Source: Lachnospiraceae bacterium | GTDB taxonomy: Bacteria; Bacillota; Clostridia; Lachnospirales; Lachnospiraceae | NCBI GenBank assembly: GCA_022647575.1 | Contig: JALCKY010000007.1 | Span: 62,001-126,000 of the forward strand | Length of the DNA stretch: 64,000 nucleotides | Direction: 5' to 3' | Shown: piece after piece, positions 10,748 to 36,265 of the stretch | How positions within the stretch are numbered: position 1 is the stretch's first letter | How the letters are laid out: each line of letters starts with the position of its first letter | Notes under the pieces: model-generated | What the model saw: the letters and a program-made list of their open reading frames with translations, nothing else | The model's database searches: none | Told to the model about the DNA's origin: nothing | Position numbers and translations under genes: made by a program

Positions 10748-11008
10748 TCAATCGCATGAGACCGAACTGGTCTCATTTTGGACCAACAGGACTGGTGAGT
10801 CATCATTGCTTAAATAATTTATGACAGCCTGCTTGGAAATGCGGTATTCATTCCCAAGACGTCGGCAGGGAATCTCTCCGGAACGCAGCAGGTGATAAGT
10901 CTTAGGCATGGCGATATTCAGCAGATGAGCCAGATCATGAGCATCCAGAATGTCCGGGTATGATGAGAAACTGCATTTGATTACTTTATTGGTTATATTT
11001 ATACTCAT
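10748..11008 (-). CDS. Second excisionase-like DNA-binding protein
   Basis: 86 residues; the start at 11008 follows CTGGAGGA. It has the same fold as its neighbour: ILDAHDLAHLLNIAMPKTYHLL with GEIPCRRLGNEYRISKQAV. It lies upstream of the other xis-like gene on the same strand, about 75 bp apart. It could be an excision factor or a regulator of the integrase operon. Two such genes in tandem suggest duplication or division of labour. Confidence 0.75.
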   Translation of the reverse strand: MSINITNKVIKCSFSSYPDILDAHDLAHLLNIAMPKTYHLLRSGEIPCRRLGNEYRISKQAVINYLSNDDSPVLLVQNETSSVSCD

Positions 11009-17193: not shown

Positions 17194-17234
17194 GATATAT
17201 ACCATCCTATTTTGAGGAAAAGGAGCTGACAGCA

Positions 17235-19650: not shown

Positions 19651-19661
19651 AGGAGAAAATA

Positions 19662-20687
19662 ATGTTACAGGAAGTTATGACGGCACCAAAAAAAATTGAA
19701 TTTAGAGAAATTGCGGATGCTGCTGCTGGATCTGGACAGATTCTGATTAGAGTCATGCGTATTGGAATATGCGGGTCGGATATTCATGTTTATCACGGAA
19801 CTCATCCATTTACATCTTATCCGGTAACACAAGGACATGAAGTTTCAGGAAAGGTTTTGTCTGTAGGAGAAAATGTAACCGGTTTCCAGATTGGTCAAAA
19901 GGTGACTTTTCAGCCACAGGTAGTTTGTGGAAATTGTTATCCTTGTACACATGGAAAATATAATATATGTGAGAATTTGAAAGTTATGGGTTTTCAGACT
20001 ACTGGAGCTGCTTCAGAATTGTTTGCGATTGATGCTGCCAAGGCCATGACGCTACCTGATGATATGAGCTATGATGAGGGTGCTATGATTGAGCCGCTTG
20101 CTGTTGCCGTACATGCTGCAAAGCGATTTCCGAATCTTGATGGAGCGAAGGTTGCTGTTATCGGCGCAGGCCCTATTGGAAATCTTGTCGCTCAAAGTGT
20201 TAAGGGTCTTGGAGCTGAAAAAGTAATGATTACAGATATAAGCAGCTGGAGACTGAATAAAGCTAAAGAATGCGGAGCAGATTATATAGTTAATACATCG
20301 GTGCAGGATTTTGGAGAAGCTATGGTTTCCTGCTTTGGAACGGATAAGGCAGATGTGATTTATGATTGCGCTGGTAATGATATTACCATGGGGCAGGCGA
20401 TAAGGAATGCACGAAAAGGAAGTACGATTATCTTGGTTGCGGTATATGCTGGCATAGCAAAAATTGACCTCGCAATCTTAAATGATCATGAGTTAGACCT
20501 AAATACAACAATGATGTATCTAAGAGAAGACTATGCGGATGCAATACGTCTTGTAAATGAAGAAAAAATTAAATTAAGACCCCTAATTTCAAAACATTTT
20601 GATTTTACGGATTATTTGAAAGCATATGAATTTATTGATGAAAACAGAGAAAAAGCCATGAAAGTAATTATTGATGTTTCGAAATAA
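19662..20687 (+). CDS. Zinc-dependent alcohol/polyol dehydrogenase (MDR family)
   Basis: 341 residues from the ATG at 19662 behind GAAGGAGA. The catalytic zinc region is GICGSDIHVYHG with GHEVSGKV; the structural zinc lobe is CGNCYPCTHGKYNIC; the NAD(P) fold is VIGAGPIGNL. Closest in form to sorbitol or L-threonine dehydrogenase-like MDR proteins. As the last gene of the epimerase-MFS operon it probably oxidises a hydroxyl of the imported sugar or polyol. Substrate not determined. Confidence 0.88.
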   Translation: MLQEVMTAPKKIEFREIADAAAGSGQILIRVMRIGICGSDIHVYHGTHPFTSYPVTQGHEVSGKVLSVGENVTGFQIGQKVTFQPQVVCGNCYPCTHGKYNICENLKVMGFQTTGAASELFAIDAAKAMTLPDDMSYDEGAMIEPLAVAVHAAKRFPNLDGAKVAVIGAGPIGNLVAQSVKGLGAEKVMITDISSWRLNKAKECGADYIVNTSVQDFGEAMVSCFGTDKADVIYDCAGNDITMGQAIRNARKGSTIILVAVYAGIAKIDLAILNDHELDLNTTMMYLREDYADAIRLVNEEKIKLRPLISKHFDFTDYLKAYEFIDENREKAMKVIIDVSK

Positions 20688-20764: not shown

Positions 20765-21661
20765 TCAGAGAGAAGTTCTTAACTGATTTAGAATAAATTT
20801 CATAAATGAGATGTCCTCAGAATTTAGTTTCTTACTTTTTCTATAAACAAGACTGATTGTAACAGGCACTTCAGGGTATAAGGGAACAATTTTTTGATTT
20901 TTTTGAAGGAAATATAAAGCGGGAATCTTTGGCATTAATGCAATTGTATTTTCTTTAGAAGAAAGAGAAATAATAGACTGTTCGCGTTCAAGCAAGCTGA
21001 TATTTTCCGGATTTATATCATGACCTTTTATAAAATGGGAATACCAGCCATAAGCCAGACTATCTTCAGCTAAAAGAATTTTGTCTTCAGATGCAAGCTG
21101 GCTCAATTCTACAAAAGATCTGTCGGATAAAGGATTTGGTTCAGGTATGACAGCAACAAGATAATCGGTGCAAATCGGGGTACAAATCATATCGGATGCC
21201 ATATGGCCTGGAATGGCTTCCCGGGCCATAAATGCAAAATCTATCTGGCCTGAGAATAACAGCTTTTCAACATCATTTACTTTTTGATCTTTGATGTCTA
21301 AAGAAATTTCGGGATTTTGAGAACGAAAAGCTGAAAAAAGTTGCGTCAGATGATAGGCTGCAAGATTCGGAATTGTTGCAATGAAAATGCGTTTATCCAT
21401 TTTAAGCTCCGACTGAATATGTATCAGACAACTGTTGTAGGAGCTGACGATCTCTGAGGCGTAAGGAATGAGAATTTTTCCATATTGTGTGAGCTCATTA
21501 GTGTGAGAATTAGGTACAAATAAATTTACACCTAACTCGTTTTCCAGGCTTTTTATATGTGCTGATAATGAAGATTGTGATAAGAATAATTGCTCAGAAG
21601 CTTCCGCATAATTGCTGGAAGAAGTCAACACTAAAAATTCTTTCAATAATTCGATTCGCAT
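20765..21661 (-). CDS. LysR family regulator of the ABC operon (probable)
   Basis: 298 residues; the ATG at 21661 is the first codon of a typical LysR HTH (SNYAEASEQLFLSQSSLSAH, residues about 15-34), followed by an effector-binding domain. It is divergent from the solute-binding protein gene at 21806, with 144 bp between, the usual arrangement for LysR control of a neighbouring transport operon. It is convergent with the zinc dehydrogenase. Confidence 0.88.
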   Translation of the reverse strand: MRIELLKEFLVLTSSSNYAEASEQLFLSQSSLSAHIKSLENELGVNLFVPNSHTNELTQYGKILIPYASEIVSSYNSCLIHIQSELKMDKRIFIATIPNLAAYHLTQLFSAFRSQNPEISLDIKDQKVNDVEKLLFSGQIDFAFMAREAIPGHMASDMICTPICTDYLVAVIPEPNPLSDRSFVELSQLASEDKILLAEDSLAYGWYSHFIKGHDINPENISLLEREQSIISLSSKENTIALMPKIPALYFLQKNQKIVPLYPEVPVTISLVYRKSKKLNSEDISFMKFILNQLRTSL

Positions 21662-21805: not shown

Positions 21806-23455
21806 ATGAAACAAAGAGTTATAGCCATGGTATTGAGTGCAGCCATGATGGTATCTTTATTTACTGGGTGTGGACAGTCTGGAAGTGCTGCCAGTACAGC
21901 GACATCTACAAGTACTGCATCGGTGGCAGGATCAACAGCTGCCGCGACGGTACAATCGACATCTACTGATGCAAGTGATAAATCAGTTACTGTTGGTATT
22001 GATGCGGATCCGGGAAGCCTTGCGCCTTATGTCGTTTCAAGCACAGGGATGCATGAAGTATATCCTACTCTTTACGAATACCTTTTTACAATGAATGAAC
22101 AGGGCGGAGAATTACAGCCGAATGTCGGCGAATCATACGAACAGACGGATGACAATACTTATCGTATTAAGATTTTTGATAATGTATATGATTCAGCAGG
22201 CAATCATATTACATCTGCTGATATTAAATGGGGCTTTGATGCTTATAAGGCAACCGGAAATGATGCAAATTTTGAAAATGTTGACTCAGTTACAGTTATT
22301 GATGACTATACGACGGATTGGAAATTCAAGAATATTGAGCTTGGCTCTCTAGCGACAGTTATGGTCGATTTCCCCATTGTGTCACAGAAAGCTTATGAAG
22401 CAAGTGCTGATCAGATGGTTGAAGATCCTGTAACAACAGGTCCGTATAAAGTTACACAATATGTTTCAGGCTCATCGATTACAATGGAAAAAAGGGATGA
22501 TTATTGGCAGACAGATACAACCAAGATTCCTCAGTCAAGCCAGGCAAATGCAGATAATATTACATTTAAACTGATTGCGGATGCAACACAGATGGCAAAT
22601 GCTTTAAAGTCCGGTGAAATTGATATGGCAAACAGCGTTTCTGCAACCAATATCTCTGATTTTGTGGATGACAGCAATAATGCAAAAGATGGGTATTATG
22701 TACAGCCGATTTTAAGTGCTGCAACCAATATTCTTTTCTTCAACTGCGATTCTTCGAGTCCGGTTAATAATCAGGATTTCCGTCAGGCTATTGCATACGC
22801 TATTGACACACAGGCGATTGTAGACGGTGTTTTAGGCGGTAAAGGAATCGCATGTTCAACAGTAGGCGGTGAATGCTTCCCGGATTTCGTAAAGGCGTGG
22901 GAAGATGAAGATTATTATAAGCAGGATCTTGATAAAGCAAAACAGCTTCTTGCATCTTCCGGTTATGATACATCAAGAGCACTGACGATTATCTGCGAAA
23001 CTGATCCGAATAAGACGCGTGCGTGCGAGATTATTCAGGCATACCTTTCTCAGATAGGTCTTACAGTAAACATTCAGAGTTATGAAACCGCATTGTTTGA
23101 ATCAACCTGCGAAGATGCTTCCGCATGGGACATGTTTATGGGATATCGCGGTGCCGGTGATTACCTTGCAAGTATGTGGCGCTGGACATTTGATGCACGT
23201 ATGCGTGATGGCCATACAGCAAACTTTGCCGTTGATGATCAGCTTCAGTCCCTTCTGGAGACATGCCTTGATCCGGATAAGCACAATGATGACAGCATGA
23301 CGGCTTTCCATGAATATCTGAAAGAAAAATGTTATGCATATGGAATCTGGAATGCATATTCTTATGCTCTTGGCGACAGCAAGGTAACGGGAATTAAATT
23401 CAGTGATGTGCCTTATATTGTACCGAATGCCTGCACCTTTACGTGGAATTCATAA
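21806..23455 (+). CDS. ABC transporter solute-binding lipoprotein, peptide/nickel family
   Basis: 549 residues behind TCGGAGGAAAAAGG. A lipoprotein signal ends in LFTGC with the lipidated Cys at 22, then a Ser/Thr/Ala linker. The rest is family-5 (DppA/OppA-like): VTVGIDADPGSLAPYV, YRIKIFDNVYDSAGNHITSADIKWGFDAYK-like core, and VTTGPYKVTQYVSGSSITM. Anchored outside the membrane, it captures the substrate for the permeases that follow. The family takes peptides, nickel chelates, sugars and other amphipathic compounds, so the ligand is open. Confidence 0.9.
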   Translation: MKQRVIAMVLSAAMMVSLFTGCGQSGSAASTATSTSTASVAGSTAAATVQSTSTDASDKSVTVGIDADPGSLAPYVVSSTGMHEVYPTLYEYLFTMNEQGGELQPNVGESYEQTDDNTYRIKIFDNVYDSAGNHITSADIKWGFDAYKATGNDANFENVDSVTVIDDYTTDWKFKNIELGSLATVMVDFPIVSQKAYEASADQMVEDPVTTGPYKVTQYVSGSSITMEKRDDYWQTDTTKIPQSSQANADNITFKLIADATQMANALKSGEIDMANSVSATNISDFVDDSNNAKDGYYVQPILSAATNILFFNCDSSSPVNNQDFRQAIAYAIDTQAIVDGVLGGKGIACSTVGGECFPDFVKAWEDEDYYKQDLDKAKQLLASSGYDTSRALTIICETDPNKTRACEIIQAYLSQIGLTVNIQSYETALFESTCEDASAWDMFMGYRGAGDYLASMWRWTFDARMRDGHTANFAVDDQLQSLLETCLDPDKHNDDSMTAFHEYLKEKCYAYGIWNAYSYALGDSKVTGIKFSDVPYIVPNACTFTWNS

Positions 23456-23465
23456 GTTACTTACG

Positions 23466-23497
23466 ATCCGTACAGCACAAAGCAGTGCTGTACGGAT
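23466..23497 (+). other. Intercistronic hairpin between binding protein and permease genes
   Basis: ATCCGTACAGCAC pairs perfectly with GTGCTGTACGGAT over a 6-nt loop. It lacks a T run, so it is likely an mRNA-stabilising or attenuating hairpin that raises the binding protein above the permeases. Confidence 0.6.
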
Positions 23498-23515
23498 TGC
23501 CAAGGAGTAGAAGCA

Positions 23516-24475
23516 ATGACAAAATACATTATTAAAAGACTTTTATGGATTATTCCCATAACTCTTGCAGTTGCTGTCATTATCTTTACCATCATGTATT
23601 TTGTGCCGGGTGATATTGCAAAGATAATGCTTGGAAACAATGCATCACAGGCGGCACTTGAAGCGAAAAGGGCTGAATTGGGTCTTGACCAGCCATACAT
23701 CGTTCGGCTCGGCAAATATCTGTATGATGTCTTTCTCCGTTTTGACTTTGGAAAATCGCTGAAAGATGGGACATCAATTACAAAAGCACTACTGTCACGC
23801 TTTCCATATACTTTCCTGCTTGCCATGATTGCAATGATTCTTTCGATAATCATTGGCATTCCTCTTGGAATCGCAGCAGCTCTGCATAATGGGAAATGGC
23901 AGGACAATGTTTCAATGTTTTTCGCATTGCTTGGAGTTTCAATGCCTGGCTTCTGGCTTGGCCTAATGCTGGTCCTTCTGTTTTCGGTCACACTTGGATG
24001 GCTTCCTTCTTCAGGCATAGGCGGATGGCAGTATTTTATTTTGCCGGGCATCACGAATGCCTGTATGGGTATTGCAACACAGGCACGGCAGACACGTTCG
24101 GCAGTACTTGAAGTTGTTCAGGCTGATTATGTTACGACTGCCAGAGCAAAAGGTGTAACAGAAAAAGGAGTCCTTTGGAAACATATTTTTCCGAATACGA
24201 TGATTCCAGTTGTCACTGCTTTGGGAACTGGTTTTGCAGCTCAGATGGGTGGTACGGTCATTATTGAAAATGTATTTTCCATCCCGGGACTCGGACAGTA
24301 TGTGGTGAATGCAATTGGCTATCGTGATTACTATGCGGTACAAGGCGCGGTTATTGTCATTGCGATTACATTCAGTCTTATTATTCTCGCAATCGATATT
24401 ATTTATGCGTATCTGGATCCGAGAATCAAGGCACAGTTTGTTAAGGCAAAGGTGGTGAAGAAGGCCCATGCATAA
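23516..24475 (+). CDS. ABC permease, DppB type
   Basis: 319 residues, ATG at 23516 behind AAGGAG. Six membrane segments; the N-terminal FDFGKSLKDGTSITKALLSRFPYT region is the usual DppB lead-in. The coupling loop RSAVLEVVQADYVTTARAKG contains the EAA motif. C-terminal YLDPRIKAQF is typical. Overlaps the next permease by 8 bp. Confidence 0.92.
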   Translation: MTKYIIKRLLWIIPITLAVAVIIFTIMYFVPGDIAKIMLGNNASQAALEAKRAELGLDQPYIVRLGKYLYDVFLRFDFGKSLKDGTSITKALLSRFPYTFLLAMIAMILSIIIGIPLGIAAALHNGKWQDNVSMFFALLGVSMPGFWLGLMLVLLFSVTLGWLPSSGIGGWQYFILPGITNACMGIATQARQTRSAVLEVVQADYVTTARAKGVTEKGVLWKHIFPNTMIPVVTALGTGFAAQMGGTVIIENVFSIPGLGQYVVNAIGYRDYYAVQGAVIVIAITFSLIILAIDIIYAYLDPRIKAQFVKAKVVKKAHA

Positions 24476-25331
24476 TAAGAAACAGAAGCATAAATCTGCC
24501 GCTTCAGTCGTATGGTCAAGAGTTTGGAATGCACCGGGTGCCCGGTTTGGTATTATCGTATTTGTAATTATGGTGCTTGCAGCTGTTTTTGCACCTCTTC
24601 TTACACCGTATGATTATGCAACTCCTGATTTACTCCATTCATTTGCTCTGCCTTCATTTTCACATATACTCGGGACAGATGAATTAGGACGGGATATGTA
24701 TACACGCATTATCTTCGGAGCAAGATATTCACTGGGAATTGCTTCACTGTCAACGGTTATTGCTCTTTTCATTGGAATGGTTTTTGGCTCTATAGCTGGT
24801 TATTTCGGGGGAATGGCAGATAATATCATTATGCGGATCTTCGATGTAATCCAATCGATTCCGGGCATTCTCCTTTCTATCGTCGTAGCGATTGTCTTGG
24901 GAAATAATGCATTCAATCTGGTGCTCGCACTGGCAGTTGTTGCTATTCCTGGTTACGCAAGGGTTCTAAGAGCACAAATCCTCAGTATCAGGAAGATGGA
25001 ATATATCGAAGCGGCCGTTGCAACGAACTGCAGTGTACCGCGGATACTTATGGGTTATGTCATTCCGAACGCAATGGCACCGCTTATTGTTCAAATGACC
25101 ATGCAGTTTCCGGGACAGATTATTGCAACTTCTTCACTTGCATATATTGGACTGGGCATACAGCCGCCAACCCCTGAATGGGGTGCAATGCTGAATTCAG
25201 CAAAGGAATATATTACAAAAGCACCTCTTACTATATTAATTCCAGGCATTGCGATTATCATTGCGGTTCTGTGTCTCAATATGATTGGCGATGGGATGCG
25301 TGATGCACTAGACCCGAGACTGAAGAAGTAA
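24468..25331 (+). CDS. ABC permease, DppC type
   Basis: 287 residues. The N-terminus has the family's cytoplasmic leader and first helix, then HILGTDELGRDMYTRIIFGAR, the DppC hallmark (given in part). The EAA loop reads RKMEYIEAAVAT, and PEWGAMLN and DALDPRLKK close the protein. Partner of the DppB-type permease, which it overlaps by 8 bp. Confidence 0.92.
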   Translation: MHNKKQKHKSAASVVWSRVWNAPGARFGIIVFVIMVLAAVFAPLLTPYDYATPDLLHSFALPSFSHILGTDELGRDMYTRIIFGARYSLGIASLSTVIALFIGMVFGSIAGYFGGMADNIIMRIFDVIQSIPGILLSIVVAIVLGNNAFNLVLALAVVAIPGYARVLRAQILSIRKMEYIEAAVATNCSVPRILMGYVIPNAMAPLIVQMTMQFPGQIIATSSLAYIGLGIQPPTPEWGAMLNSAKEYITKAPLTILIPGIAIIIAVLCLNMIGDGMRDALDPRLKK

Positions 25332-25345
25332 AAAGGAGCTTTAAG

Positions 25346-26332
25346 ATGGGAAATGCAAACAATGAAACTCCATTTTTAAAGGTCAGAAATCTGACGGTAG
25401 AATATACGTCCGAAGGACAGATTATTCATGCGGTAAACAATGTTTCTTTTCAGTTGGAGAAGGGTAAAACACTGGGCCTTGTAGGAGAGACCGGCGCCGG
25501 GAAAACGACGATTGCGAAATCTATTCTTCGTATACTGCCAAAGTTTTCGGCTTCTGTAGAAGCAGGCGAAATTCAGCTGAACGGAAAAGATCTGCTTACT
25601 TTAAATGAACTTGAGATGCATAGCATCCGCGGACAGGAAATATCGATGATCTTTCAGGATCCTATGACATCGCTGAATCCTGTAATGACGGTCGGAAAAC
25701 AGATTTCGGAAGTGCTTTCTCTGCATGATGACAAGATGACCGCAGCAGAATCAGTCAAGCGAGGAAAAGAGATGCTTGAAATGGTTGGTATTCCCGGAAG
25801 CCGTTATGGTGAATATCCGCATCAATTTTCCGGAGGAATGAAGCAGCGGGTTGTTATTGCAATGGCACTGGCATGCAATCCTCAGCTGCTTCTTGCAGAT
25901 GAGCCTACAACTGCCCTGGATGTTACTATTCAGGCGCAGGTTTTGGAAATGATTAACAATTTGAAGACTAAAATCGGTACTTCTATGATTTTGATTACGC
26001 ATGACCTCGGAGTTGTTGCAGAAATGTGTGATAACGTAGCAGTTGTCTATGCAGGCGAGATAGTTGAAGAAGGCACGTTGGAGGATATTTTTGATCATCC
26101 GCAGCATCCGTATACAGTCGGGCTGTTTAAGGCACTTCCCAATATTAATAAAGATGTTGAGTGGCTGGATCCGATTAAAGGACTTCCTCCGGATCCGACA
26201 AATCTGCCGCATGGTTGCTGTTTCAATCCTCGCTGTCCGTATGCGACAGATGCCTGCAAAGGAGATCATGTTCAATTGAAAGAAATTGCGCCCGGACATT
26301 TTTGCCGCTGCCTGAAAGAAAAGGAGAATTAA
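25346..26332 (+). CDS. ABC ATPase, DppD type
   Basis: 328 residues behind AAAAGGAG. Walker A is GETGAGKTT, Q-loop IFQDPMTSLNP, signature FSGGMKQR, Walker B LLLADEPTTALD. The C-terminal oligopeptide/dipeptide extension has the cysteines CCFNPRCPYATDAC often linked with an Fe-S cluster. It energises the permease pair together with the DppF-type ATPase that begins one base after its stop. Confidence 0.93.
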   Translation: MGNANNETPFLKVRNLTVEYTSEGQIIHAVNNVSFQLEKGKTLGLVGETGAGKTTIAKSILRILPKFSASVEAGEIQLNGKDLLTLNELEMHSIRGQEISMIFQDPMTSLNPVMTVGKQISEVLSLHDDKMTAAESVKRGKEMLEMVGIPGSRYGEYPHQFSGGMKQRVVIAMALACNPQLLLADEPTTALDVTIQAQVLEMINNLKTKIGTSMILITHDLGVVAEMCDNVAVVYAGEIVEEGTLEDIFDHPQHPYTVGLFKALPNINKDVEWLDPIKGLPPDPTNLPHGCCFNPRCPYATDACKGDHVQLKEIAPGHFCRCLKEKEN

Positions 26333-26333
26333 T

Positions 26334-27305
26334 ATGTCTGCATTAATTGAAGTTAAGCACTTAAAGAAATATTTTGATGTTTCTTCCGGTTCACTTCATG
26401 CAGTAGACGATGTCTCGTTTTCAATTCAGGAAGGAAAAACAATGGGGATAGTTGGTGAATCCGGATGCGGAAAATCAACTCTTGGAAGAACGCTGATACA
26501 TTTACTTGAATCAACGGATGGACAGATCTTTTTTCAAGGCAGAGATATCACCAAGGTAAAGAACAGTGAATTAAAGAAACTCAGAGAACAGATGCAGATT
26601 GTTTTTCAGGATCCGTATTCTTCTTTGAATCCTCGCATGACAGTAGAGAATGTAATTCAGGAACCATTAAAACGCTCTAAAAAGTTAAGCAAGGAAGAAT
26701 TGAGCAGTGAAACACAGCGGATTATGGATGTTGTCGGTATTGAAGCAAGACTTCGCCTTGCTTATCCGCATGAATTAGATGGTGGCCGGAGACAGCGCGT
26801 AGGAATAGGACGTGCACTTGCACTTAATCCCAAATTTATTGTCTGTGATGAGCCGGTTTCAGCTCTGGATGTATCAATTCAGGCTCAGGTATTAAATCTT
26901 TTGAAAGAATTGCAGCAGAAATATGGATATACTTTTGTATTTATAACACATAATCTTTCTGTCGTAAAACATATTTCAGATGATATCTGCGTTATGTACT
27001 TGGGACAGCTTGTCGAGACCAGTCCGTCAAAGGAATTGTTTAAGCATCCCATTCATCCATATACAAAGGCATTACTGTCAGCTATTCCTTCTATTGATAT
27101 TCATAATCAGAATAAACGAATTACATTGAAGGGAGAGATAACATCTCCGATCAATCCGGGTGAAGGATGCAGATTTGCAGCACGCTGTCCTTATGTGAAA
27201 GAGGCTTGCCATAAGCATCAGGAACTGAAAGAGATATTGCCAAACCACTTCGTCTCCTGCTGCAGGGCAGAAGAATTAAATGATTTGACGGAGAAGAAGG
27301 CATAA
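26334..27305 (+). CDS. ABC ATPase, DppF type
   Basis: 323 residues behind AAAGGAG. Walker A GESGCGKST, Q-loop VFQDPYSSLNP, Walker B FIVCDEPVSALD. The signature reads LDGGRRQR rather than LSGGQ, a variant common in Firmicute DppF/OppF. The C-terminal Cys motif CRFAARCPYVKEAC is present. Last core transporter gene; the MBL gene starts 2 bp later. Confidence 0.93.
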   Translation: MSALIEVKHLKKYFDVSSGSLHAVDDVSFSIQEGKTMGIVGESGCGKSTLGRTLIHLLESTDGQIFFQGRDITKVKNSELKKLREQMQIVFQDPYSSLNPRMTVENVIQEPLKRSKKLSKEELSSETQRIMDVVGIEARLRLAYPHELDGGRRQRVGIGRALALNPKFIVCDEPVSALDVSIQAQVLNLLKELQQKYGYTFVFITHNLSVVKHISDDICVMYLGQLVETSPSKELFKHPIHPYTKALLSAIPSIDIHNQNKRITLKGEITSPINPGEGCRFAARCPYVKEACHKHQELKEILPNHFVSCCRAEELNDLTEKKA

Positions 27306-27307
27306 GG

Positions 27308-28183
27308 ATGAACGAACTGGATTTCTATTCTCATACAAAAATAAACGAAAATCTATATCAAATAGTAGAAAGCTATGCACCATGCACGGATCCCGGTTTA
27401 GGGAATGGTAGCCGTTTCAATATATATGTTGTAATCGGTATGGATAAAATTGCCGTTATTGATGCAGGACTCGGAGCAGTGGACGGTCTGCGCAAATATA
27501 TAGAAAAGAATCTTCCGATTGAAAACAAACCAATCGAATGTTATTTAACGCATGCACATCCGGATCATGTAGGCGGTTCAATGCTTTTTGAAAGAATATT
27601 CATGCATCCGGGAGAACTGTGGGATCTGGAATGGAATACAAATATAGAACGGCGTTTGAGCGATCTTGAACTTTTCGCGGATTACAGAGAGGATGTTCAG
27701 ACATTCTGCAAAGTGCATTGTGTTCCTCGTCTTACTGAAGAAAGAATTAATCTGATAGAAGATGGAGAAAGGATTGATTTAGGTGAAATTAGCCTGAAAG
27801 TAATTAGAATACCGGGGCATACGCATGGTTCGGTCGGGTATTATAACGAAAAGGAAAATTACATTTTGAGCGGCGACTGTCTTCAGATATTGAATTCATA
27901 CAGCGGTGGAATAGATGCCCTTAAAGAATACTATCTGCAGCTGAACAAATTTATAGAATCAATGCCGGCTGATTTGCAGATCGGAAGTGGGCATGATGCT
28001 TTGATTCATACAATGGATGTACCGAAATGGATGCTGCAGGGGCTTGATGATGTAATTAGCGGAAGAAACCTTGAGAAGGACGTCCCTAGACCTAGCCGAT
28101 TCAAAATGACGCACGATAAGAAAAAAAATATGATGCATTTTGTCGGAGACATTAAAGTTGTATATGATCAGAACTGTATGTAG
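27308..28183 (+). CDS. Metallo-beta-lactamase-fold hydrolase (copy 1)
   Basis: 291 residues, starting 2 bp after the ABC ATPase gene, with AAGGCATAAGG as ribosome site. The metal motif THAHPDHVGG (HxHxDH) is intact, followed by VIRIPGHTHGSVGYY and LSGDCLQ, which supply the later His and Asp ligands, and GSGHDALIHT near the end. No signal peptide, so cytoplasmic. MBL-fold proteins hydrolyse lactones, thioesters, phosphodiesters or other bonds, so the substrate is open. It resembles the copy at 31385-32263 in its opening (NELDFYSHTKINENLY vs NGFDFYSYEKLNSRLY). Confidence 0.85.
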   Translation: MNELDFYSHTKINENLYQIVESYAPCTDPGLGNGSRFNIYVVIGMDKIAVIDAGLGAVDGLRKYIEKNLPIENKPIECYLTHAHPDHVGGSMLFERIFMHPGELWDLEWNTNIERRLSDLELFADYREDVQTFCKVHCVPRLTEERINLIEDGERIDLGEISLKVIRIPGHTHGSVGYYNEKENYILSGDCLQILNSYSGGIDALKEYYLQLNKFIESMPADLQIGSGHDALIHTMDVPKWMLQGLDDVISGRNLEKDVPRPSRFKMTHDKKKNMMHFVGDIKVVYDQNCM

Positions 28184-28194
28184 AAGGAGAAAAA

Positions 28195-29544
28195 ATGGGA
28201 AATCTGAAAGTCGGTGCTTCAAAGAAGTGTATATCTCCAAAAGAGGATATGCTGCCGTCTCCGCAGGCTGTATTGAACGGCGATGCGCAGTATACCTGGG
28301 TACGCAAGGACATCTATGTCAGAGCCATTGCAATTGATAATGGAAAGAAAAAACTGGTTTTTATTGTGACGGAAACAAACAATGCGAATGTGCTGACCAT
28401 ACGTAAAGAAGTAGCGAAAAAGAATAATATTCCGGAAGAAAATGTATTTATGTGCAATAGTCATAACCATTCAGCAACAAATACGCTGGATCTTGATTAT
28501 CACAATACTGACTGGGATCATGACGTACCTGAAGTCGTCTTTAAATACAGCAAATATGTCATGGATCTGGAAATTCAGTGTGCAAATGAAGCTTTTCAAA
28601 ACATGCAGCCTGCCCGTTATGCATATGCCACGGGAAACAGTTATATCAACTGCAATCGTGACGAGGAATTAAATAATGGACGGTGGATATTTGGAAGAAA
28701 TTTTGAACGTCCAAGTGATAAGACATTAGCCATACTGAAATTTGAAGATATGGAAGGACATTTGATTGCAGCATTGATGAATTATGCAGTGCATGCCACC
28801 ATGTGCTTTCGTGTAAAAGATGAAAATGGAAATATGTGTGTTTCAGGTGATCTCGCCGGCGATATATGTGAATTCATGGAGGAAGCATATAGCAAAGACA
28901 ATGCGGTTGTGGCATGGACGATTGCAGCCGCTGGAAATCAGACAGCTATTCTGGAATTCTTTCATGAATATCATCCGGATGGGACATATGTTCCGGATGA
29001 GAGATATAATCATTATTCCGGAACGTATATGTGGAAACTCTGTGAGCATCTTGCACAGAAACAGGGAATGGATGCTTTAAAAATTATGAGCGGCATGACG
29101 AAGACCCATGATGATATGAAAATTGAAGTGGTTGATCGTCAGCTGCAGGTTCCAGGGACAAAGGTTGAGGGATTTGGATTTGAACAGCTTTGTGATGATA
29201 GAAATATCGATGAGAGCAAAATCCATAATGTAGATGATGATAAGATCTATAATCTGCGGCTGAAACTGATTACATTGGATGATATTGCACTATTTGGTGT
29301 CAATTTCGAGTTTATGTGTGAAAGCGGACTCCGAATCAAAGAGAAGTCACCACTTAAGAATCTCATGATTATTACCTGTGCAGATAAGAGCATTGAAGGT
29401 GCACCATATCTTGTCGATAAATGGGGATATGAACATCATACTCCATCCTATTACCGCAATGGCGTAAGAGACGCAATGACTGAAGAGGTTTCTACGGAAG
29501 CATTAATGGAAATGTTTGAAGAAAGACTGCGCAGGGAAGATTGA
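28195..29544 (+). CDS. Neutral/alkaline ceramidase-like protein without signal peptide
   Basis: 449 residues behind AGAAGGAG. The N-terminus MGNLKVGASKKCISPKE and the metal-type motif MCNSHNHSATNT match the neutral ceramidase N-terminal family, in which His residues of a SHTHSGP-like motif bind zinc. AAAGNQT and later GVNFEFMCESG also fit. True ceramidases are secreted and about 650 residues with a C-terminal Ig-like domain; this one is shorter and has no signal peptide, so it acts inside the cell, perhaps as an amidohydrolase on an imported small molecule. Substrate unknown. Confidence 0.75.
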   Translation: MGNLKVGASKKCISPKEDMLPSPQAVLNGDAQYTWVRKDIYVRAIAIDNGKKKLVFIVTETNNANVLTIRKEVAKKNNIPEENVFMCNSHNHSATNTLDLDYHNTDWDHDVPEVVFKYSKYVMDLEIQCANEAFQNMQPARYAYATGNSYINCNRDEELNNGRWIFGRNFERPSDKTLAILKFEDMEGHLIAALMNYAVHATMCFRVKDENGNMCVSGDLAGDICEFMEEAYSKDNAVVAWTIAAAGNQTAILEFFHEYHPDGTYVPDERYNHYSGTYMWKLCEHLAQKQGMDALKIMSGMTKTHDDMKIEVVDRQLQVPGTKVEGFGFEQLCDDRNIDESKIHNVDDDKIYNLRLKLITLDDIALFGVNFEFMCESGLRIKEKSPLKNLMIITCADKSIEGAPYLVDKWGYEHHTPSYYRNGVRDAMTEEVSTEALMEMFEERLRRED

Positions 29545-29560
29545 AAAGAAGGAGGCATAG

Positions 29561-30409
29561 ATGCTCACGAAATTATTTCCAATGGTTCAGATAAAAAAAA
29601 ATATATGGGAAATAGATGAGTTTGATCTTGCAAGTATTTTTCTGATTATTGGCAGTGAGAGAGCTATGATGATTGACTGCGGGATGGGTGTTGGTGATCT
29701 TAAAGGTGCAGTTGAAATGCTTACGGATAAACCGCTTACGGTTGTTATTTCTCACTCCCACCCCGATCACACAGGCAACGCACGTCAATTCAGAGAAATA
29801 TGGATGAATCCAAAAGACAAAAATGATTCGATACCTTTTGAATTGAAAAGAAGAAGGGAAGATACATGGTGTGTTGCCCTGCGCCAGGGAGGTAATTATC
29901 CATACGATATTGATACGGATCTTCGCGAACCGACAGAGCCTGTTCCGGTTATTCATGATTTGACAGATGGTCAGGAGTTCGATTTAGGAGATCGGATTAT
30001 CAGGGCATATGAATGCCCTGGGCATACAAAGGGAGAAATGGTTTTCTTAGATGCTACGGATCGCATGCTTTTTGCAGGGGATGCACTCAATTATAATTTG
30101 CAGCTAAGGCAGGAGCCGATTGAAACAGATGTCCGTTATTTGGAAAAAATCAAGGATATGAAAAATCAGTATGATGGAATCTGGAATGGGCACCATGATT
30201 TCAGACCGCTTGGCGCGCCTCTTGGTGAAGATTGTCTGGACAATGTTATTGATCTTTGTCATCAGCTCCTTGACGGAACATACAGCCCGGTAACGGTAAA
30301 GAGCTTTTGGGGACCGTGGTCTGGCAGACCTGATGTTACAATGATCTGCAAAGGCAAGAATTATCTTGGATGGAATCCTGAATTGATTTACGACAAGGAT
30401 GCAGAATAA
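29561..30409 (+). CDS. Metallo-beta-lactamase-fold hydrolase (copy 2)
   Basis: 282 residues behind AAGGAGG. Metal motif SHSHPDHTGN is intact; AYECPGHTKGEM and LFAGDALNY supply the remaining ligands; WNGHHDFRPLG is the last His region. It differs from copies 1 and 3 in its opening (LTKLFPMVQIKKNIWEID) and its insert around residues 80-125, so it probably has another substrate or step. No signal peptide. Confidence 0.85.
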   Translation: MLTKLFPMVQIKKNIWEIDEFDLASIFLIIGSERAMMIDCGMGVGDLKGAVEMLTDKPLTVVISHSHPDHTGNARQFREIWMNPKDKNDSIPFELKRRREDTWCVALRQGGNYPYDIDTDLREPTEPVPVIHDLTDGQEFDLGDRIIRAYECPGHTKGEMVFLDATDRMLFAGDALNYNLQLRQEPIETDVRYLEKIKDMKNQYDGIWNGHHDFRPLGAPLGEDCLDNVIDLCHQLLDGTYSPVTVKSFWGPWSGRPDVTMICKGKNYLGWNPELIYDKDAE

Positions 30410-30429
30410 AGCAGTTATACGGAGGATAT

Positions 30430-31398
30430 ATGAACAATATACTTCTGAAGCATACAGATTTACTGATCAGCCCACTTGCATTTGGAACTGCACAGTTTGG
30501 CAATAAATATGACAAGCAGCAGTCTTTTCACTTTCTTGATGCCTATGTTGATGCAGGTGGGAATTTAATAGATACGGCCCTTGCTTATTCTTCTTCCATC
30601 AGTGATGAAAGCCGTAGTGAAAAAATTATCGGTGAGTGGATGTCAAAGCTAGGAAATCGAAATCATGTCGTTTTAGCCACAAAAGGGTGCCATCCGCGTT
30701 ACTGGGATGAGAATCTGCCGCGTTTTTCAAAGAAGGATCTATTTAAAGATATAGATCAGAGTCTGAAAAACTTGAAAACGGATTATGTGGATTTATATTG
30801 GATACACAAAGATGACCCGACAAAGCCTGTTGACGAAGTCCTCGATGGAATGAATGAAATCGTTAAGAGCGGGAAAGCCAGATTTATTGGAATTTCCAAT
30901 ATGGCGGCAGATAGAATGGATTTATCATTAAATTACATGAAATCTCATTCGTTTGCACCGATTATTGCAAGTCAGATTCTTTACAGTGTTGCGCAGATTA
31001 ATATGGAAAACCGTTATGATAAACAGGGTGTTGCTATGACACATGAAGAGTATGCCTATTATGAAGAACAGGATCTTACGGTTTTTGCATATGCTTCACA
31101 GGCTCATGGTTTTTTTGCAAAGTATGCATCAGGAGGAGAAGATGCTCTCGCAGATGGTCTAAAATCAGAATATCTGAATGATTATAATGCCGCAATGTGC
31201 TTCAGGCTTCAAAAGATTGCACAGGAAAAAGGGGCTTCAATTACACAAATTGCAATTGCTGCACTGGTTCAGCGAGGGGACTTTTTTACTGTTCCGATTA
31301 TCGGATGTTCAAGTGAGGCACAGCTGAAGGAAACAATAAAGGGTATGGAGATCACTCTGACGCAGGAGGACTTGGATTATATTTATGAACGGGTTTGA
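30430..31398 (+). CDS. Aldo/keto reductase
   Basis: 322 residues behind ACGGAGG. AKR features: FGTAQFGNKYD, GNLIDTALAYSSS (catalytic Asp/Tyr region), VVLATKGCHPRY (Lys) and YVDLYWIHKDDP, then GKARFIGISNM. An NADPH-dependent carbonyl reductase or the reverse dehydrogenase. Overlaps the third MBL gene by 14 bp, hence the same operon. Confidence 0.88.
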   Translation: MNNILLKHTDLLISPLAFGTAQFGNKYDKQQSFHFLDAYVDAGGNLIDTALAYSSSISDESRSEKIIGEWMSKLGNRNHVVLATKGCHPRYWDENLPRFSKKDLFKDIDQSLKNLKTDYVDLYWIHKDDPTKPVDEVLDGMNEIVKSGKARFIGISNMAADRMDLSLNYMKSHSFAPIIASQILYSVAQINMENRYDKQGVAMTHEEYAYYEEQDLTVFAYASQAHGFFAKYASGGEDALADGLKSEYLNDYNAAMCFRLQKIAQEKGASITQIAIAALVQRGDFFTVPIIGCSSEAQLKETIKGMEITLTQEDLDYIYERV

Positions 31399-32263
31399 TT
31401 TTTACTCATATGAAAAACTAAATAGCAGACTATATGTTATTCATGAAAAAATAGGCTGCAATTGCTATAACATATTCGTTGCCACAGGCAGCAGGAAAAG
31501 TGTGGCTTTTGATGCCGGTATGGGATTCACAAGTGATCTTCGAAATTATATAGAAAGAAATATTGCAGTTCATCATCCAATAGAATGCTACTTAACACAT
31601 GGAGACATTGATCATATTGGAAGTGCAGTTTTGTTTGATTCATATTATCTGAATCATCGCGACTATCCGCAATTGAAGTACCATTTGAACCCGGAAAGAC
31701 TTTTTGCAGAAACCGGAAAATTCTGTGGGAATGATCCGAACATTATGTCCTTTATACACGAAAATTATGTCCATAAAGAAGATTTTGAAAAGAATGTCAG
31801 AGACATTAATAATGGGGATACAATCGATCTTGGGAATATGAAATTTGAAGTCTATAAACTTCCTGGACATACTCCCGGGTCATTGGCCTTTTTCAATAGA
31901 GAGGAAAACTATGCAATTGTCGGAGATGCAATATTGACAACAAGCAGTTTTGGGAGATGTAAGGATTATCAGGAAAGTTTTGACGCATACAATTATTTTA
32001 TATCAGTTTTGCCATATGACGTTGTTTTATACAGCGGACACGGAACAAATACAGAAGGCATTTCAAGACTTCTGTATATAAAGCAGGCATTTAAAGAAAT
32101 TATAGAAGGCAGAACGCAGGGCGATGAGCATTTTACGTTAGCGTTTGATTTTTTGCCGAAAGAATTAATGGATCCTGAAGAATTCACTTATGACATGTGG
32201 TGCCATAGAACAGGTACGGCAGTCGTTCCATATAATGCGAATGCATTAAAAAAGGAGAATTAG
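31385..32263 (+). CDS. Metallo-beta-lactamase-fold protein (copy 3), altered metal motif
   Basis: 292 residues; the ATG at 31385 lies inside the end of the reductase gene. Fold motifs are THGDIDHIGS, VYKLPGHTPGSLAFF, IVGDAILTT and YSGHGTNTEG. The first motif is HxDxDH instead of HxHxDH, so the second metal ligand is Asp; this occurs in some MBL subfamilies and could change the metal or reaction. Same N-terminal pattern as copy 1, so these two are likely paralogues by duplication. Confidence 0.83.
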   Translation: MNGFDFYSYEKLNSRLYVIHEKIGCNCYNIFVATGSRKSVAFDAGMGFTSDLRNYIERNIAVHHPIECYLTHGDIDHIGSAVLFDSYYLNHRDYPQLKYHLNPERLFAETGKFCGNDPNIMSFIHENYVHKEDFEKNVRDINNGDTIDLGNMKFEVYKLPGHTPGSLAFFNREENYAIVGDAILTTSSFGRCKDYQESFDAYNYFISVLPYDVVLYSGHGTNTEGISRLLYIKQAFKEIIEGRTQGDEHFTLAFDFLPKELMDPEEFTYDMWCHRTGTAVVPYNANALKKEN

Positions 32264-32264
32264 C

Positions 32265-32921
32265 GTGAGAATGTTTTATGAACTTCCAATGGCAAATTTA
32301 TCGAATGCAGAAATGATAGAGAAAATGCGTATTCGTGAACTTGTTGAATTTGATCGATATTGCTGTGATTATGGCCATAAAGAGGAGGAGAGAAATCTTT
32401 GGTGGGAAGACGGCAAGCTGTTTACAACATGGTTTAATGGCAGTATCAGTGATTATATAGGCAATCCGACAGTTGCACCCAAACCGGCTCCTGCAGATGG
32501 GCCCAGAGAGGCACATGGCCATCGGATTAATAATACGGTCGTTTGGCTGAAAGAGAGCCGTGCCATTGCAGAAATGCTATGCATTCTCAGCTTCCGGAAT
32601 AAACTGGCATGGGAATGGATGGATACGCAGTGCTGGTGCCGCATGCATTATCGTGTGGAAAAAAGAGATGGGGTATGGAAAATATGCTATTTTGAAGGTA
32701 TTTATGAAAAAGATCGAATGGATCCTGTTTTTCAGGACAGCACTTTTAAAATTCCGAGAGAAGAACTTTTTCAGTTCAGACCAATTAATTGGAACATGGC
32801 TGTACGAAGAGGAGTCTTTCTTGGTGGCATGAAAAATTCCGAAAAATGGGCAGGTGCTGATAAACCTGAAACATTGCAGAGGTTATATGAAGAAAGCTCA
32901 AAATGGATAGGACTTGAATAA
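32265..32921 (+). CDS. Possible NTF2/SnoaL-like protein of the island operon
   Basis: 218 residues from GTG at 32265 behind AAAAAGGAGAA (or ATG at 32271). The pattern of an opening helix (AEMIEKMRIRELVEFDRYCCD, seen as helical), long curved strands with HRINNTVVWLK, and WCRMHYRVEKRDGVWKICY resembles the NTF2-like fold used by SnoaL cyclases, dehydratases and some degradative enzymes. This is a fold guess. It is the last gene before the MATE gene and, by spacing, the last gene of the operon. Confidence 0.5.
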   Translation: MRMFYELPMANLSNAEMIEKMRIRELVEFDRYCCDYGHKEEERNLWWEDGKLFTTWFNGSISDYIGNPTVAPKPAPADGPREAHGHRINNTVVWLKESRAIAEMLCILSFRNKLAWEWMDTQCWCRMHYRVEKRDGVWKICYFEGIYEKDRMDPVFQDSTFKIPREELFQFRPINWNMAVRRGVFLGGMKNSEKWAGADKPETLQRLYEESSKWIGLE

Positions 32922-33013
32922 GAAAGATTGGCGAGTAGATGAATGCTAAAATAACGACTGATTTTACAGAGGGAAACATTAGAAAGCAAATGATGAAATT
33001 TGCAGTCCCTCTG

Positions 33014-33021
33014 TTTTTTTC
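33014..33021 (+). repeat. Left 8-bp target site duplication of the IS
   Basis: TTTTTTTC here equals 34537-34544 and both flank the element. 8 bp is the usual ISL3 target duplication. Confidence 0.85.
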
Positions 33022-34536
33022 GAGGCTTCACTACTTTGTGTGGGTAGAAAAGCCATCCGCTAACTAAATAAATTGAAAACCACCTGCATCCGTGGTAATG
33101 TAGAAGTTCCTACACCAAAACATTCCAAGGAGGATGCAAGTGGTCTCTACTTCTACATTATGCAAAAATCTTTTAAATGTCAAGAACATCATGATTGAGG
33201 ATGTAAAACTTTGGACGGACAAAGATACAGTTCGCCATCTCACAATCAATGCTAAGCCATACAAGAAAGATCAAAATCGTTGCCCTATTTGCGGAGCAAA
33301 GTGCCCGGGCTACGACACTGGCCGCATCAGCAGATCTTGGCGAGCCCTTGATTTTGGTGGCGTCATCGTACAGATCGTTGCAGACACCTCGCGCATTGAA
33401 TGTCCGCACCATGGCGTCCATGTCGCCAGTGTGCCTTGGGCTTATCCCGGCTCTCGCTTTACTAAAGAGTTTGAAACCAGTACCGCTTGGCTGGCAACGC
33501 AGCTCAATAAGAGTGCTGTTGCCAAATATATGCGTATCTCATGGGATACCGTCGGCAAAATCATTTCCCGCGTCCGTGAGGACATCGAACCGAATCTTAA
33601 GAGCCGTTTGGATGGGCTAAAGGAAATCGGCATTGATGAGACCAGCTACCGTAAGGGACATAAGTACATCACGGTCGTCGTGAACCATGCGACCAATACC
33701 GTTGTATGGGCACATAAGGGACACGGCAAAGCCATCCTGACGCTATTCATGGAAGAACTGACGAAGGAGCAGCGAGAATCCATCCGGGTCGTCACTGGCG
33801 ACGGTGCAAAATGGATTACATCCTGTGTTGAGAAATATCTGCCGAACTGCATCCGTTGTGTCGATGCCTTTCACGTGGTGGAATGGGCGATGAAAGCACT
33901 CGACAATGTCCGCCGTCAAAGCTGGCATGAAGCAAAATCTGTTGCCGAAAGTTATGGCAAGCGACGGAAAGGCCATCCCAAAGCAGCTGATGAAGAATAT
34001 GCAGCAGCTTCCGCCGCCAGGCAGCGATCTCAGGATATCAAGGGATCAGCTTATGCTTTAGGCAAAGCACCTGAGAACCTTACTACGACGCAGGAAGCCA
34101 AACTGGAAATGATACAGCTTTCGGATAACCGGCTTTACCGCGCGTATAAGCTGAAAGAAATGCTGCGGCTCCTATTGAAGATGACTAATGTGGATACTGC
34201 TGAAGGTGAACTGACACGCTGGGTGAAATGGGCACGGCATTGCCGGATCCCTGAGTTTGTTGAACTGCAACGAAAGATTATGCGGCACAAGGATCATATC
34301 CTCAATACCATCCAGTTGCAGGTAAGCAACGCTAGAATCGAGTCCACAAACAACAAGATTAAGCTGATTATTCGACGCTCGTTTGGCTTCCGGAATATCC
34401 AGAATATGCTCGACATGGTACTGCTCGTTTGCTCCAACTTAAACATCCCACTGCCGAACCGTCCATAATTCCATATAGAATAAGATCGGGCCGATATTTC
34501 AGATTAGTTTTTACCCACACAAGCTAGTGAAGAGCC
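33022..34536 (+). mobile_element. ISL3-family insertion sequence, 1515 bp
   Basis: Imperfect terminal inverted repeats of about 25 bp: the left end begins GAGGCTTCACTACTTTGTG and the right end, read inward, GGCTCTTCACTAGCTTGTG, with 20 of 25 positions equal. One transposase gene fills it. Flanked by the 8-bp duplication TTTTTTTC, so the borders are exact. Length and single gene fit ISL3. Confidence 0.9.
33134..34468 (+). CDS. ISL3 family transposase
   Basis: 444 residues from ATG at 33134; a GTG at 33140 is better spaced from AAGGAGG and may be the true start. The N-terminus has the zinc-finger pattern CPICGAKCPGYD and ECPHHG. The DDE region shows EIGIDETSYRKGHKY (first Asp), VTGDGAKW and CVDAFHVVEWAM (second Asp), and SNARIESTNNKIKLI (Glu). 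The frame is intact, so the element may be active. Confidence 0.92.
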   Translation: MQVVSTSTLCKNLLNVKNIMIEDVKLWTDKDTVRHLTINAKPYKKDQNRCPICGAKCPGYDTGRISRSWRALDFGGVIVQIVADTSRIECPHHGVHVASVPWAYPGSRFTKEFETSTAWLATQLNKSAVAKYMRISWDTVGKIISRVREDIEPNLKSRLDGLKEIGIDETSYRKGHKYITVVVNHATNTVVWAHKGHGKAILTLFMEELTKEQRESIRVVTGDGAKWITSCVEKYLPNCIRCVDAFHVVEWAMKALDNVRRQSWHEAKSVAESYGKRRKGHPKAADEEYAAASAARQRSQDIKGSAYALGKAPENLTTTQEAKLEMIQLSDNRLYRAYKLKEMLRLLLKMTNVDTAEGELTRWVKWARHCRIPEFVELQRKIMRHKDHILNTIQLQVSNARIESTNNKIKLIIRRSFGFRNIQNMLDMVLLVCSNLNIPLPNRP

Positions 34537-34544
34537 TTTTTTTC
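34537..34544 (+). repeat. Right 8-bp target site duplication of the IS
   Basis: TTTTTTTC, identical to 33014-33021. Confidence 0.85.
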
Positions 34545-35823
34545 TAACCTTTTACAGGCAGTTTATAACATGGTTGACATGATTGTTATCGGTCAGTTCG
34601 TAGGAAAAACAGGACTCTCTGCAGTGTCAATCGGAGGTGATGTTCTTAACCTTCTGACGTTTCTTGCCATGGGATTTTCCAATGCCGGCCAAATCATCAT
34701 TGCTCAGCATTTAGGGGCGGGAAGACAGGCAAAAATTGGAAAAATTGTAGCAAACTTATTTACTTTCCTTATTGCGGGCGCTCTTATTATGAGCATCGTA
34801 TGCTTTAATATGAGAAATTCTATCCTTTTATGGATGAATACTCCGGACGAAGTATGGAATTACGCACTTGACTATGTAACGACATGTATCCTGGGTCTTG
34901 TTTTTATCTATGGATATAATGTAGTCAGTGCAGTTCTGAGAGGTATGGGTGATTCCAGGCACCCTTTCATGTTTATAGCGACAGCAGCCATTATAAACCT
35001 TGTTCTTGACCTTGTTTTCGTTATTAATTTCCATATGGCGGTCTTTGGGGTTGCACTGGCAACGGTTATTGGGCAGGGGATAAGTTTTATATGGGGTCTT
35101 GCTTTCCTTATCTGTAAACGTCGGGAAATGGGGCTTTCTATGAGTTTGAACAGCTTTATTCCTGACCGTATTATACTTGGGATGCTTATGAAACTTGGAT
35201 TCCCGATGGCTATAAAATCGGCATCTGTCACTTTCTCGAAATTGTTTGTTGATTCGTGGATAAATTCATATGGCGTTGTTGCATCCAGTGCATCCGGCAT
35301 AGAGAGCAAAATGAATGTTATTAGCAATCTTTTTGCAAATGCAATTAATATGGCATGCAGTACTATGATTGGTCAGAATGTTGGAGCAGAAAAGTATGAC
35401 AGAGTACCTAAGATCATGAAATCGGCATTTGCAATTGTTTTTACGATAGCGCTGATGTTATCTTTTATTGTTATTTTCTTCCCGAAAATGTTATTTGGTA
35501 TATTCACATCTGACAACGAAGTGATAAACGCATGTATGCTGATGATTCCTTTGATTGTTTTGATCTTTATGGGAAGTGCGGTACGTTCGCCAAATAATGG
35601 GCTAATTGATGGAAGCGGGAACTTTAAACTGAATATAGTCGTTGCGTTATTTGATGGAATCATTAATAGAATCGGCTTCGGATTATTATTTGGTCTGGCT
35701 ATGGGAATGGGATGGATTGGATTCCTATATGGTGATGCTGTGGCAGGATTTACACCGTTACTCATTGGTAGCATTTACTATTTTAGTGGAAAATGGCGCA
35801 CAAGGAAGTACATTATTAAATAG

Positions 35824-36223: not shown

Positions 36224-36265
36224 TTCGGGACGCAGAGGCCGCTGGTTCGAATCCAGTCGCATCGA
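36224..36265 (+). repeat. Island attachment site, distal copy (42-bp direct repeat)
   Basis: Identical to tRNA-Pro positions 8991-9032 but without a tRNA 5' half in front, so it is the displaced original 3' end. It sets the island at about 27.2 kb and separates AT-rich island sequence from more GC-rich chromosome. Confidence 0.9.

Follow-up and report, generated by a model that had tools for sequence, protein, structure and literature searches.

A putative integrative island in a Lachnospiraceae bacterium carries a candidate catabolic operon with a neutral-ceramidase homologue

Introduction

What compound would a bacterium import and take apart with an operon that joins an ABC importer to a neutral-ceramidase homologue (CER), three metallo-beta-lactamase-fold proteins (MBL1, MBL2 and MBL3), an aldo/keto reductase (AKR) and a SnoaL/NTF2-like protein (SNO)? 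The question is raised by a 64,000-nucleotide stretch of a Lachnospiraceae genome, positions 62,001 to 126,000 of contig JALCKY010000007.1 (assembly GCA_022647575.1), which we call the window; the bacterium that carries it probably came from an animal gut. In this study, we performed a comparative analysis of this operon, its surroundings and its relatives. Our analyses placed the operon inside a 27-kb putative integrative island (8991-36265) and recovered much of its gene set, rearranged, in Neglectibacter timonensis, in a Lachnospiraceae metagenome-assembled genome (MAG; G345) and in a second cluster of the same genome. The best explanation, to which we give about an even chance, is that the island was acquired laterally and serves the catabolism of a compound containing sugar, whether a glycoside, a disaccharide or an acylated or amide-linked sugar.

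Operon Organization and Recurrence of the Gene Set

The initial annotation described eleven closely spaced genes behind a divergent LysR gene, and this description held throughout: eleven open reading frames (ORFs) occupy 21806-32921 on the same strand, separated by successive gaps of 60, -8, 14, 1, 2, 11, 16, 20, -14 and 1 bp, with purine-rich, Shine-Dalgarno-like ribosome-binding sites ahead of most starts, and the LysR gene lies 144 bp upstream of the gene for the family-5 substrate-binding protein (SBP; Table 1). Terminator-like sites between 16100 and 36000 were near chance (17 observed vs 13.6 +/- 3.9 in shuffled sequences). The families it had named (ABC importer, three MBLs, AKR and NTF2-like protein) were recovered by Pfam or by sequence identity, and the ceramidase likeness by profile comparison; the permeases and ATPases owe their names to their sequences and to 60-73% identity with N. 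timonensis genes rather than to Pfam. In a simple hydropathy scan, the N-terminus of the SBP reached 2.00, its start looking lipoprotein-like by eye, and none of the six enzymes (MBL1-3, CER, AKR and SNO) had an N-terminal stretch above 1.6, the maximum being 1.49 in MBL1. Since only the SBP and the permeases have strongly hydrophobic N-termini, the enzymes look cytoplasmic, in line with the absence of signal peptides claimed earlier, and import followed by breakdown inside the cell stands as the best reading.

A search of other genomes, which had been proposed at the outset, found much of the set again. The N. timonensis locus (L083 with L035) carries, in one direction, genes for an SBP, two permeases, two ATPases, an AGE-family epimerase, CER, AKR and a Zn-dependent medium-chain dehydrogenase (ADH), in which the AGE-family gene overlaps CER; two LysR genes, MBL1, a MATE exporter gene and MBL2 lie close to this run. 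Nine of the eleven window operon genes have clustered relatives there, the exceptions being MBL3 and SNO, with the BLAST identities listed in Table 1 and with 52% for MBL2, 35% for MATE and 28 and 32% for the two LysRs. The two loci thus share the importer, CER, AKR, ADH, the epimerase, MBL1, MBL2, MATE and two LysRs, whereas their gene order differs and a SNO search of the N. timonensis genome gave no match. In G345, a 20-kb stretch holds relatives of the five importer genes, two CER genes, AKR and SNO, plus two MBL genes and MATE; SNO stands there with AKR, MATE, CER and MBL, and the second CER and an importer of the same type lie about 6.5-8 kb past that MBL gene. These clustered relatives in N. 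timonensis and G345 indicate that the association of the window genes is more than chance. The second cluster of the window's own genome (L010, C2:450000-469000) comprises LysR, MBL2, SBP, permease and ATPase genes, relatives of two small membrane proteins of the window (TMa and TMb), another MBL and CER. In the literature searched (titles and abstract openings), no pathway with this gene set was found, as the initial annotation had supposed, nor any paper on the N. timonensis locus, any study of ceramidase-superfamily genes in amino-sugar gene runs or anything on bacterial CER relatives.

The N. timonensis operon, a split MATE gene and the island anatomy also imply that the unit extends on both sides of 21806-32921; as first bounded it was too small, leaving out the epimerase, ADH, MATE and the putative island. 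Because the N. timonensis operon itself holds AGE and ADH genes, the epimerase and ADH genes upstream of the window operon are tied to its set. The window epimerase, of 408 aa, is similar in sequence to cellobiose 2-epimerase over residues 19-389 (5zhb, 4e-61), and is about 22-23% identical to four epimerases of amino-sugar CER loci. Downstream, the MATE gene is cut by an ISL3-family insertion sequence: residues 8-35 of the MATE protein of locus L033 match 32960-33043 at 57% by tblastn. Uninterrupted MATE genes occur near MBL2 or CER in relatives.

The Neutral-Ceramidase Homologue and Its Neighbourhoods

Compared with PDB as a single sequence, CER matched neutral ceramidase at E=0.0048, and a profile of 25 sequences matched 2zws at 9.3e-23 and 4wgk at 1.6e-18, which identifies a homologous N-terminal catalytic domain. 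Residues H90, H92, H200, E372 and Y405 of the window CER align with the HxH, His, Glu and Tyr of neutral ceramidase, which we take to be its Zn site, and all five (HHHEY) are present in 56 of 59 CERs, that of the window included. This homology would accord with degradation of sphingolipid (ceramide). Unlike neutral ceramidase, however, the window CER has no hydrophobic, signal-like N-terminus and its gene lies within an importer operon; with 449 aa against chains of 646 and 688 residues, and with profile matches that stop at residue 481 of 646, it shows neither the full length with the C-terminal part nor the secretion of neutral ceramidase. No Pfam family, PF04734 included, was recognised in it at 1e-3, and many CER relatives adjoin amino-sugar genes. 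On account of these missing features we rate ceramide degradation as extremely unlikely. A PF04734 search of the whole genome gave no match, which is no evidence of absence, as control genomes were equally without one. A structure prediction for CER from four sequences (mean pLDDT, the predicted local distance difference test, 40) was too poor for use.

The CER profile found matches in 29 of 398 genomes sampled from the window's phylum, own genome counted; a single-sequence search matched three of 99 genomes, namely its own, one of the same order and one of 41 of the same genus, the last being weak (93 residues, E=7.5e-4). Apart from the window's own, 28 genomes of the phylum sample were matched; in 32 loci from 26 of these we examined the neighbourhood of CER, assigning gene families within 8 kb by BLAST against seeds, some of which had been named by eye. 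An SIS_2, NagB, AGE, phosphotransferase-system (PTS) mannose-family, RpiR or BadF-type gene was present in 20 of these loci, 18 of them with SIS_2, and BLAST relatives of the MBL seeds were present in none of the 32. By eye, other MBL-fold-like ORFs, unmatched by the BLAST seeds, were seen in L134 (adjoining CER) and in L128. Loci L126, L127, L138, L144 and L155, among others, have ceramidase-superfamily genes inside amino-sugar runs, with mixtures of SIS_2, NagA, NagB, epimerase and PTS genes.

A tree of the 59 CERs splits into sides of 26 and 33 rows at a branch with support 100/99. On the 26-row side, 23 CERs have MBL and/or OPP-permease neighbours (one also an epimerase gene) and three have none; on the 33-row side, 26 have amino-sugar neighbours as scored, a label that includes loci with NagA alone, and seven do not. 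Every CER with MBL/OPP neighbours thus falls on the same side, and the window CER lies there, adjoining that of N. timonensis. A length filter removed three ORFs above 500 aa and pieces below 370 aa (such as a cut CER at the end of L041), the cut copy L081 and the near-duplicate L091 were dropped by hand, the label of L158 was set by hand, and the root serves for drawing only. The CER of the second cluster (L010) groups with that of L095. Two Solobacterium MAGs (G342 and G343) gave 12 CER matches each, some being pieces of one gene, and in G342 (L084/L085, G342:C48) a galactokinase-like and an aldose-epimerase-like gene, assigned by eye, precede a tandem of six CER and several MBL genes.

The neighbourhoods raise a second possibility, N-acyl amino-sugar catabolism, in which CER would be an amino-sugar N-deacylase and the operon would feed a GlcNAc/ManNAc-like route. 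Besides the 20 loci with amino-sugar-type genes, it can draw on five loci in which an AGE-family gene either overlaps CER or is no more than 64 bp away; four of these belong to the 33-row side of the tree and one to the window's side. Against this, the 8-kb surroundings of the window CER had no match to SIS_2, NagA, NagB or PTS, this CER does not fall on the 33-row side, and the window epimerase is of the cellobiose type with low identity to those of amino-sugar loci. We consider such a route conceivable but unlikely.

MBL-Fold Proteins, Importer and SnoaL-Like Protein

Pfam Lactamase_B was recognised in all three MBL proteins (5.2e-15, 9.2e-24 and 3.4e-11). MBL1 (HAHPDH/GHTHG/GDCL/GSGHD) and MBL2 (HSHPDH/GHTKG/GDAL/NGHHD) have the HxHxDH motif and the further His/Asp motifs; MBL3 departs from HxHxDH, its HGDIDH having Asp in place of the second His. 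None of the three reached the cut-off of beta-lactamase models, and an MBL2 profile had no PDB match at 1e-6. MBL2 was found at 1e-30 or better in three of 245 genomes of a class sample, own included, and a search of genome contigs gave at least 28 loci, of which 26 were close, with E values of 3e-83 or better. The weak loci L047 and L048 were excluded from the neighbourhood counts, so that all figures below are of 26, among the matches listed, with many loci cut by contig ends. The titles of eight records refer to herbivores (roe deer, goat, sheep, horse or 'Lapin', read as rabbit), eight further ones bear 'RUG' names, which presumably denote rumen genomes, and one locus is that of the isolate N. 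timonensis. Neighbouring genes included MATE in five loci, another MBL in five, and an aldose epimerase (some seeds for which were named by eye), a beta-propeller lactonase and an MR/MLE gene in three each. Elsewhere in the window's own genome (L019, C6, 2016-5926), a tannase-family gene (Pfam), an MFS/GPH-type transporter gene (by eye) and a 33% MBL2 relative adjoin.

A system that detoxifies incoming antibiotics or xenobiotics and exports through MATE would fit the MBL fold, the putative mobile island, the MATE genes at MBL2-relative loci and the split MATE gene behind the operon. A dedicated importer with a lipoprotein-like SBP, however, argues for acquisition rather than defence, the epimerase and ADH would have no obvious role, and the MBLs all stay below the beta-lactamase cut-offs; we regard detoxification as quite improbable. 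The importer itself scored far below the cut-offs of NikA and Opp models. The best PDB match of the SBP was another SBP (5u4o, 2.2e-27), and AgaA, whose ligand we take to be of the agropine class, was matched at 1.6e-24. The AgaA match would suit opine or Amadori-type sugar-amino-acid conjugates, which combine an amide, lactam or lactone with a sugar. Yet the best match lies elsewhere, family-5 matches are unspecific, and no deglycase was recognised among the annotated genes, no model search having been made for one; such conjugates are therefore a substrate that we strongly doubt.

SNO was found in its own genome alone among the 398 phylum genomes, and in one (G345) of eight genomes reached through the loci. 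Its profile matched the non-oxidative decarboxylases PPP2 (1.2e-5) and AGDC1 (0.0018). In the HMMER alignment, SNO has the D40-H86 dyad of AGDC1 as D35 and H86 and one tryptophan of the W35/W61 clamp (W61, as W56), whereas W35 falls on D30 and E88 of the potassium site is gone, being Ile in the window SNO and Val in that of G345. Alanine mutants of W35 and E88 are reported as inactive in the AGDC1 study (PMC7862292). Since neither residue is kept, a dehydratase, isomerase or elimination role appears likelier for SNO than gallate-type decarboxylation. If SNO were a gallate-type decarboxylase, the substrates could be sugar esters of phenolic acids, such as galloyl esters; the profile matches, the dyad, the retained tryptophan and the tannase-family gene beside an MBL2 relative at L019 would be consistent with this, but because of the missing features we hold it very unlikely. 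A single-sequence structure prediction for SNO (mean pLDDT 35) was too poor for use.

Anatomy of the Putative Island and Other Features

Genomic islands that integrate at tRNA genes are defined by an integrase beside the tRNA and a flanking direct repeat, and both are found here: a tyrosine integrase gene adjoins tRNA-Pro(cgg), and the 42-bp core in its 3' part is repeated exactly at the right end. The G+C content is 0.398 over 13.6-35.8 kb vs 0.506 in the flanks. Relatives have integrase-like ORFs at the same tRNA in G026 and G021, and in G033 one between two core copies, so that the site looks like an integration hotspot. In these respects the island resembles known ones, whereas its cargo, an undescribed catabolic set, differs. 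In G004 and G035 the contig breaks off shortly past the tRNA, and in G005 no integrase match was found in the 4.4 kb past the tRNA, nor the window's right flank. An empty attachment (att) site was sought in relatives and no clean one was seen, the two flanks of the window never standing side by side. No conjugation genes were noticed in the window's ORF list, no search having been aimed at them.

Three imperfect 44-nt direct repeats lie at 11913-12016, near the integrase end of the island. In the same-genus genome G033, positions 6458-10866 of G033:C83 (L195) hold a small element that lies between two core copies at the same tRNA-Pro and includes a gene resembling a relaxase by eye. Outside the island, a GlgD-like (5890-7004) and a cell-wall-hydrolase-like gene (7577-8820), both named by eye, consist of two ORFs each vs one in the relative L191, a split that is a frameshift or an assembly error. 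TMa and TMb have relatives in the second cluster, as well as at some further loci with MBL or CER genes.

Table 1. Features of the window, by position (percentages are protein identities).
Feature	Position	Strand	Evidence
att core, left island end	8991..9032	+	3' part of tRNA-Pro(cgg) 8959-9033; exact 42-bp direct repeat
Tyrosine integrase	9159..10391	-	Phage_integrase PF00589 3e-23
Small HTH_17 protein	10748..11008	-	PF12728 1.8e-8; excisionase-like by position only
TMa, small membrane protein, bPH_5-like domain	13623..14054	+	PF10882 1.4e-6; relatives in L010, L034, L081
TMb, small membrane protein	14051..14725	+	Relatives in L010, L021; no Pfam family
MFS transporter a	14923..16194	+	43% to MFS b
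LysR regulator	16333..17247	-	32% to one of two N. timonensis-locus LysRs
AGE, cellobiose-2-epimerase-like	17235..18461	+	PF07221 1.5e-37; 5zhb; 33% to N. timonensis AGE
MFS transporter b	18409..19650	+	PF07690 4.5e-55
ADH, Zn-dependent medium-chain dehydrogenase	19647..20687	+	Pfam; 64% to N. timonensis operon ADH
LysR regulator, divergent	20765..21661	-	Pfam
SBP, family-5 substrate-binding protein	21806..23455	+	SBP_bac_5 PF00496 1.1e-63; 46% to N. timonensis
ABC permease 1	23516..24475	+	69% to N. timonensis
ABC permease 2	24468..25331	+	60% to N. timonensis
ABC ATPase 1	25346..26332	+	67% to N. timonensis
ABC ATPase 2	26334..27305	+	73% to N. timonensis
MBL1, MBL-fold, HAHPDH	27308..28183	+	Pfam Lactamase_B; 51% to N. 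timonensis
CER, neutral-ceramidase superfamily	28195..29544	+	Profile vs PDB; 48% to N. timonensis CER
MBL2, MBL-fold, HSHPDH	29561..30409	+	Pfam Lactamase_B; 62% to own genome's second cluster
AKR, aldo/keto reductase	30430..31398	+	PF00248 6.7e-58; 36% to N. timonensis, 34% to G345
MBL3, MBL-fold, HGDIDH	31385..32263	+	Pfam Lactamase_B 3.4e-11
SNO, SnoaL/NTF2-like, D35 and H86	32265..32921	+	SnoaL_4 PF13577 1.6e-6; about 64-65% to G345
MATE exporter gene, 5' piece cut by the insertion sequence	32960..33025	+	tblastn; end set at its repeat
ISL3-family insertion sequence	33026..34532	+	Inverted repeats 33026-33050/34508-34532
ISL3 transposase	33134..34468	+	PF01610 2.4e-62
MATE gene, remainder (ORF 34570-35823)	34533..35823	+	MatE 1.5e-42; residues 26-449 of L033 MATE, 51%
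Second 42-bp core, right island end	36224..36265	+	Exact repeat; G000:C7:98224-98265

Proposed Function and Significance

From the gene context, we infer a sugar-containing substrate. First, the upstream epimerase matches cellobiose 2-epimerase, CER in N. timonensis has an AGE-family gene overlapping it, and ADH is linked to the same operon. Second, amino-sugar genes surround numerous CER relatives, and at four of those loci a gene from a different AGE subfamily sits no more than 64 bp from CER. Third, some MBL2 relatives have lactonase or aldose-epimerase neighbours. The N-acylated or lactone-bearing compound first guessed at is compatible with this reading, but the context favours a sugar-containing compound over amides in general. 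An operon under LysR control would supply the family-5 ABC importer, which would take the compound in intact; cytoplasmic CER, with one Zn, would cut an amide (or ester) bond, and the MBL proteins might hydrolyse esters, or lactones formed on oxidation of the sugar. AKR and the Zn-dependent ADH could switch alcohol and carbonyl states, the AGE epimerase could invert C2 of the sugar, and SNO could use acid-base chemistry to bring about an elimination from a carbonyl intermediate or its isomerisation. The MATE pump, here broken by the insertion sequence, may once have exported a by-product.

Several observations weigh against this explanation. The epimerase and ADH genes of the window lie in a separate unit upstream of the operon, and their relatives were not matched in the fetched stretches of G345. 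Family-5 importers also carry peptides, nickel and opines (compare the AgaA match). Of the five Zn-site residues, the CER of the second cluster keeps only three (HVAEY), and the Zn chemistry of CER is therefore not needed in every copy of the set. Among the 26 MBL2-relative loci listed, OPP permeases occur in five and CER in three, so MBL2, whose relatives often occur on their own, is not confined to this system; MATE genes also stand near three CERs of the 33-row side (L126, L132 and L142), so MATE is not specific to the gene set. The match between branch and context in the CER tree is partly a sampling effect, because all 26 rows come from the window's own genome and from genomes found through MBL2. 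In addition, G006 and G016 each have a relative of the right-flank gene, with no repeat core in the fetched stretches, and the insertion history is thus not simple.

A broader and rather improbable proposal is that three components, namely the CERs of the branch associated with MBL/OPP neighbours, proteins of the MBL2 type and SNO, together form a new mobile, non-glycosidase route that opens plant- or host-derived glycoconjugates. In such a route, oxidation by AKR and ADH and base-catalysed elimination by SNO would be followed by hydrolysis of amides and lactones by CER and MBL proteins, and hydrolases expanded in tandem arrays, as in some gut Solobacterium MAGs, would cover related compounds.

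If the sugar-containing compound is read rightly, these findings would explain what a bacterial branch of the ceramidase superfamily does. A catabolic set on an apparent integrative island also suggests one way in which gut bacteria might come to use a compound, and N. timonensis, a named isolate with the rearranged set, makes the question of the substrate directly testable.

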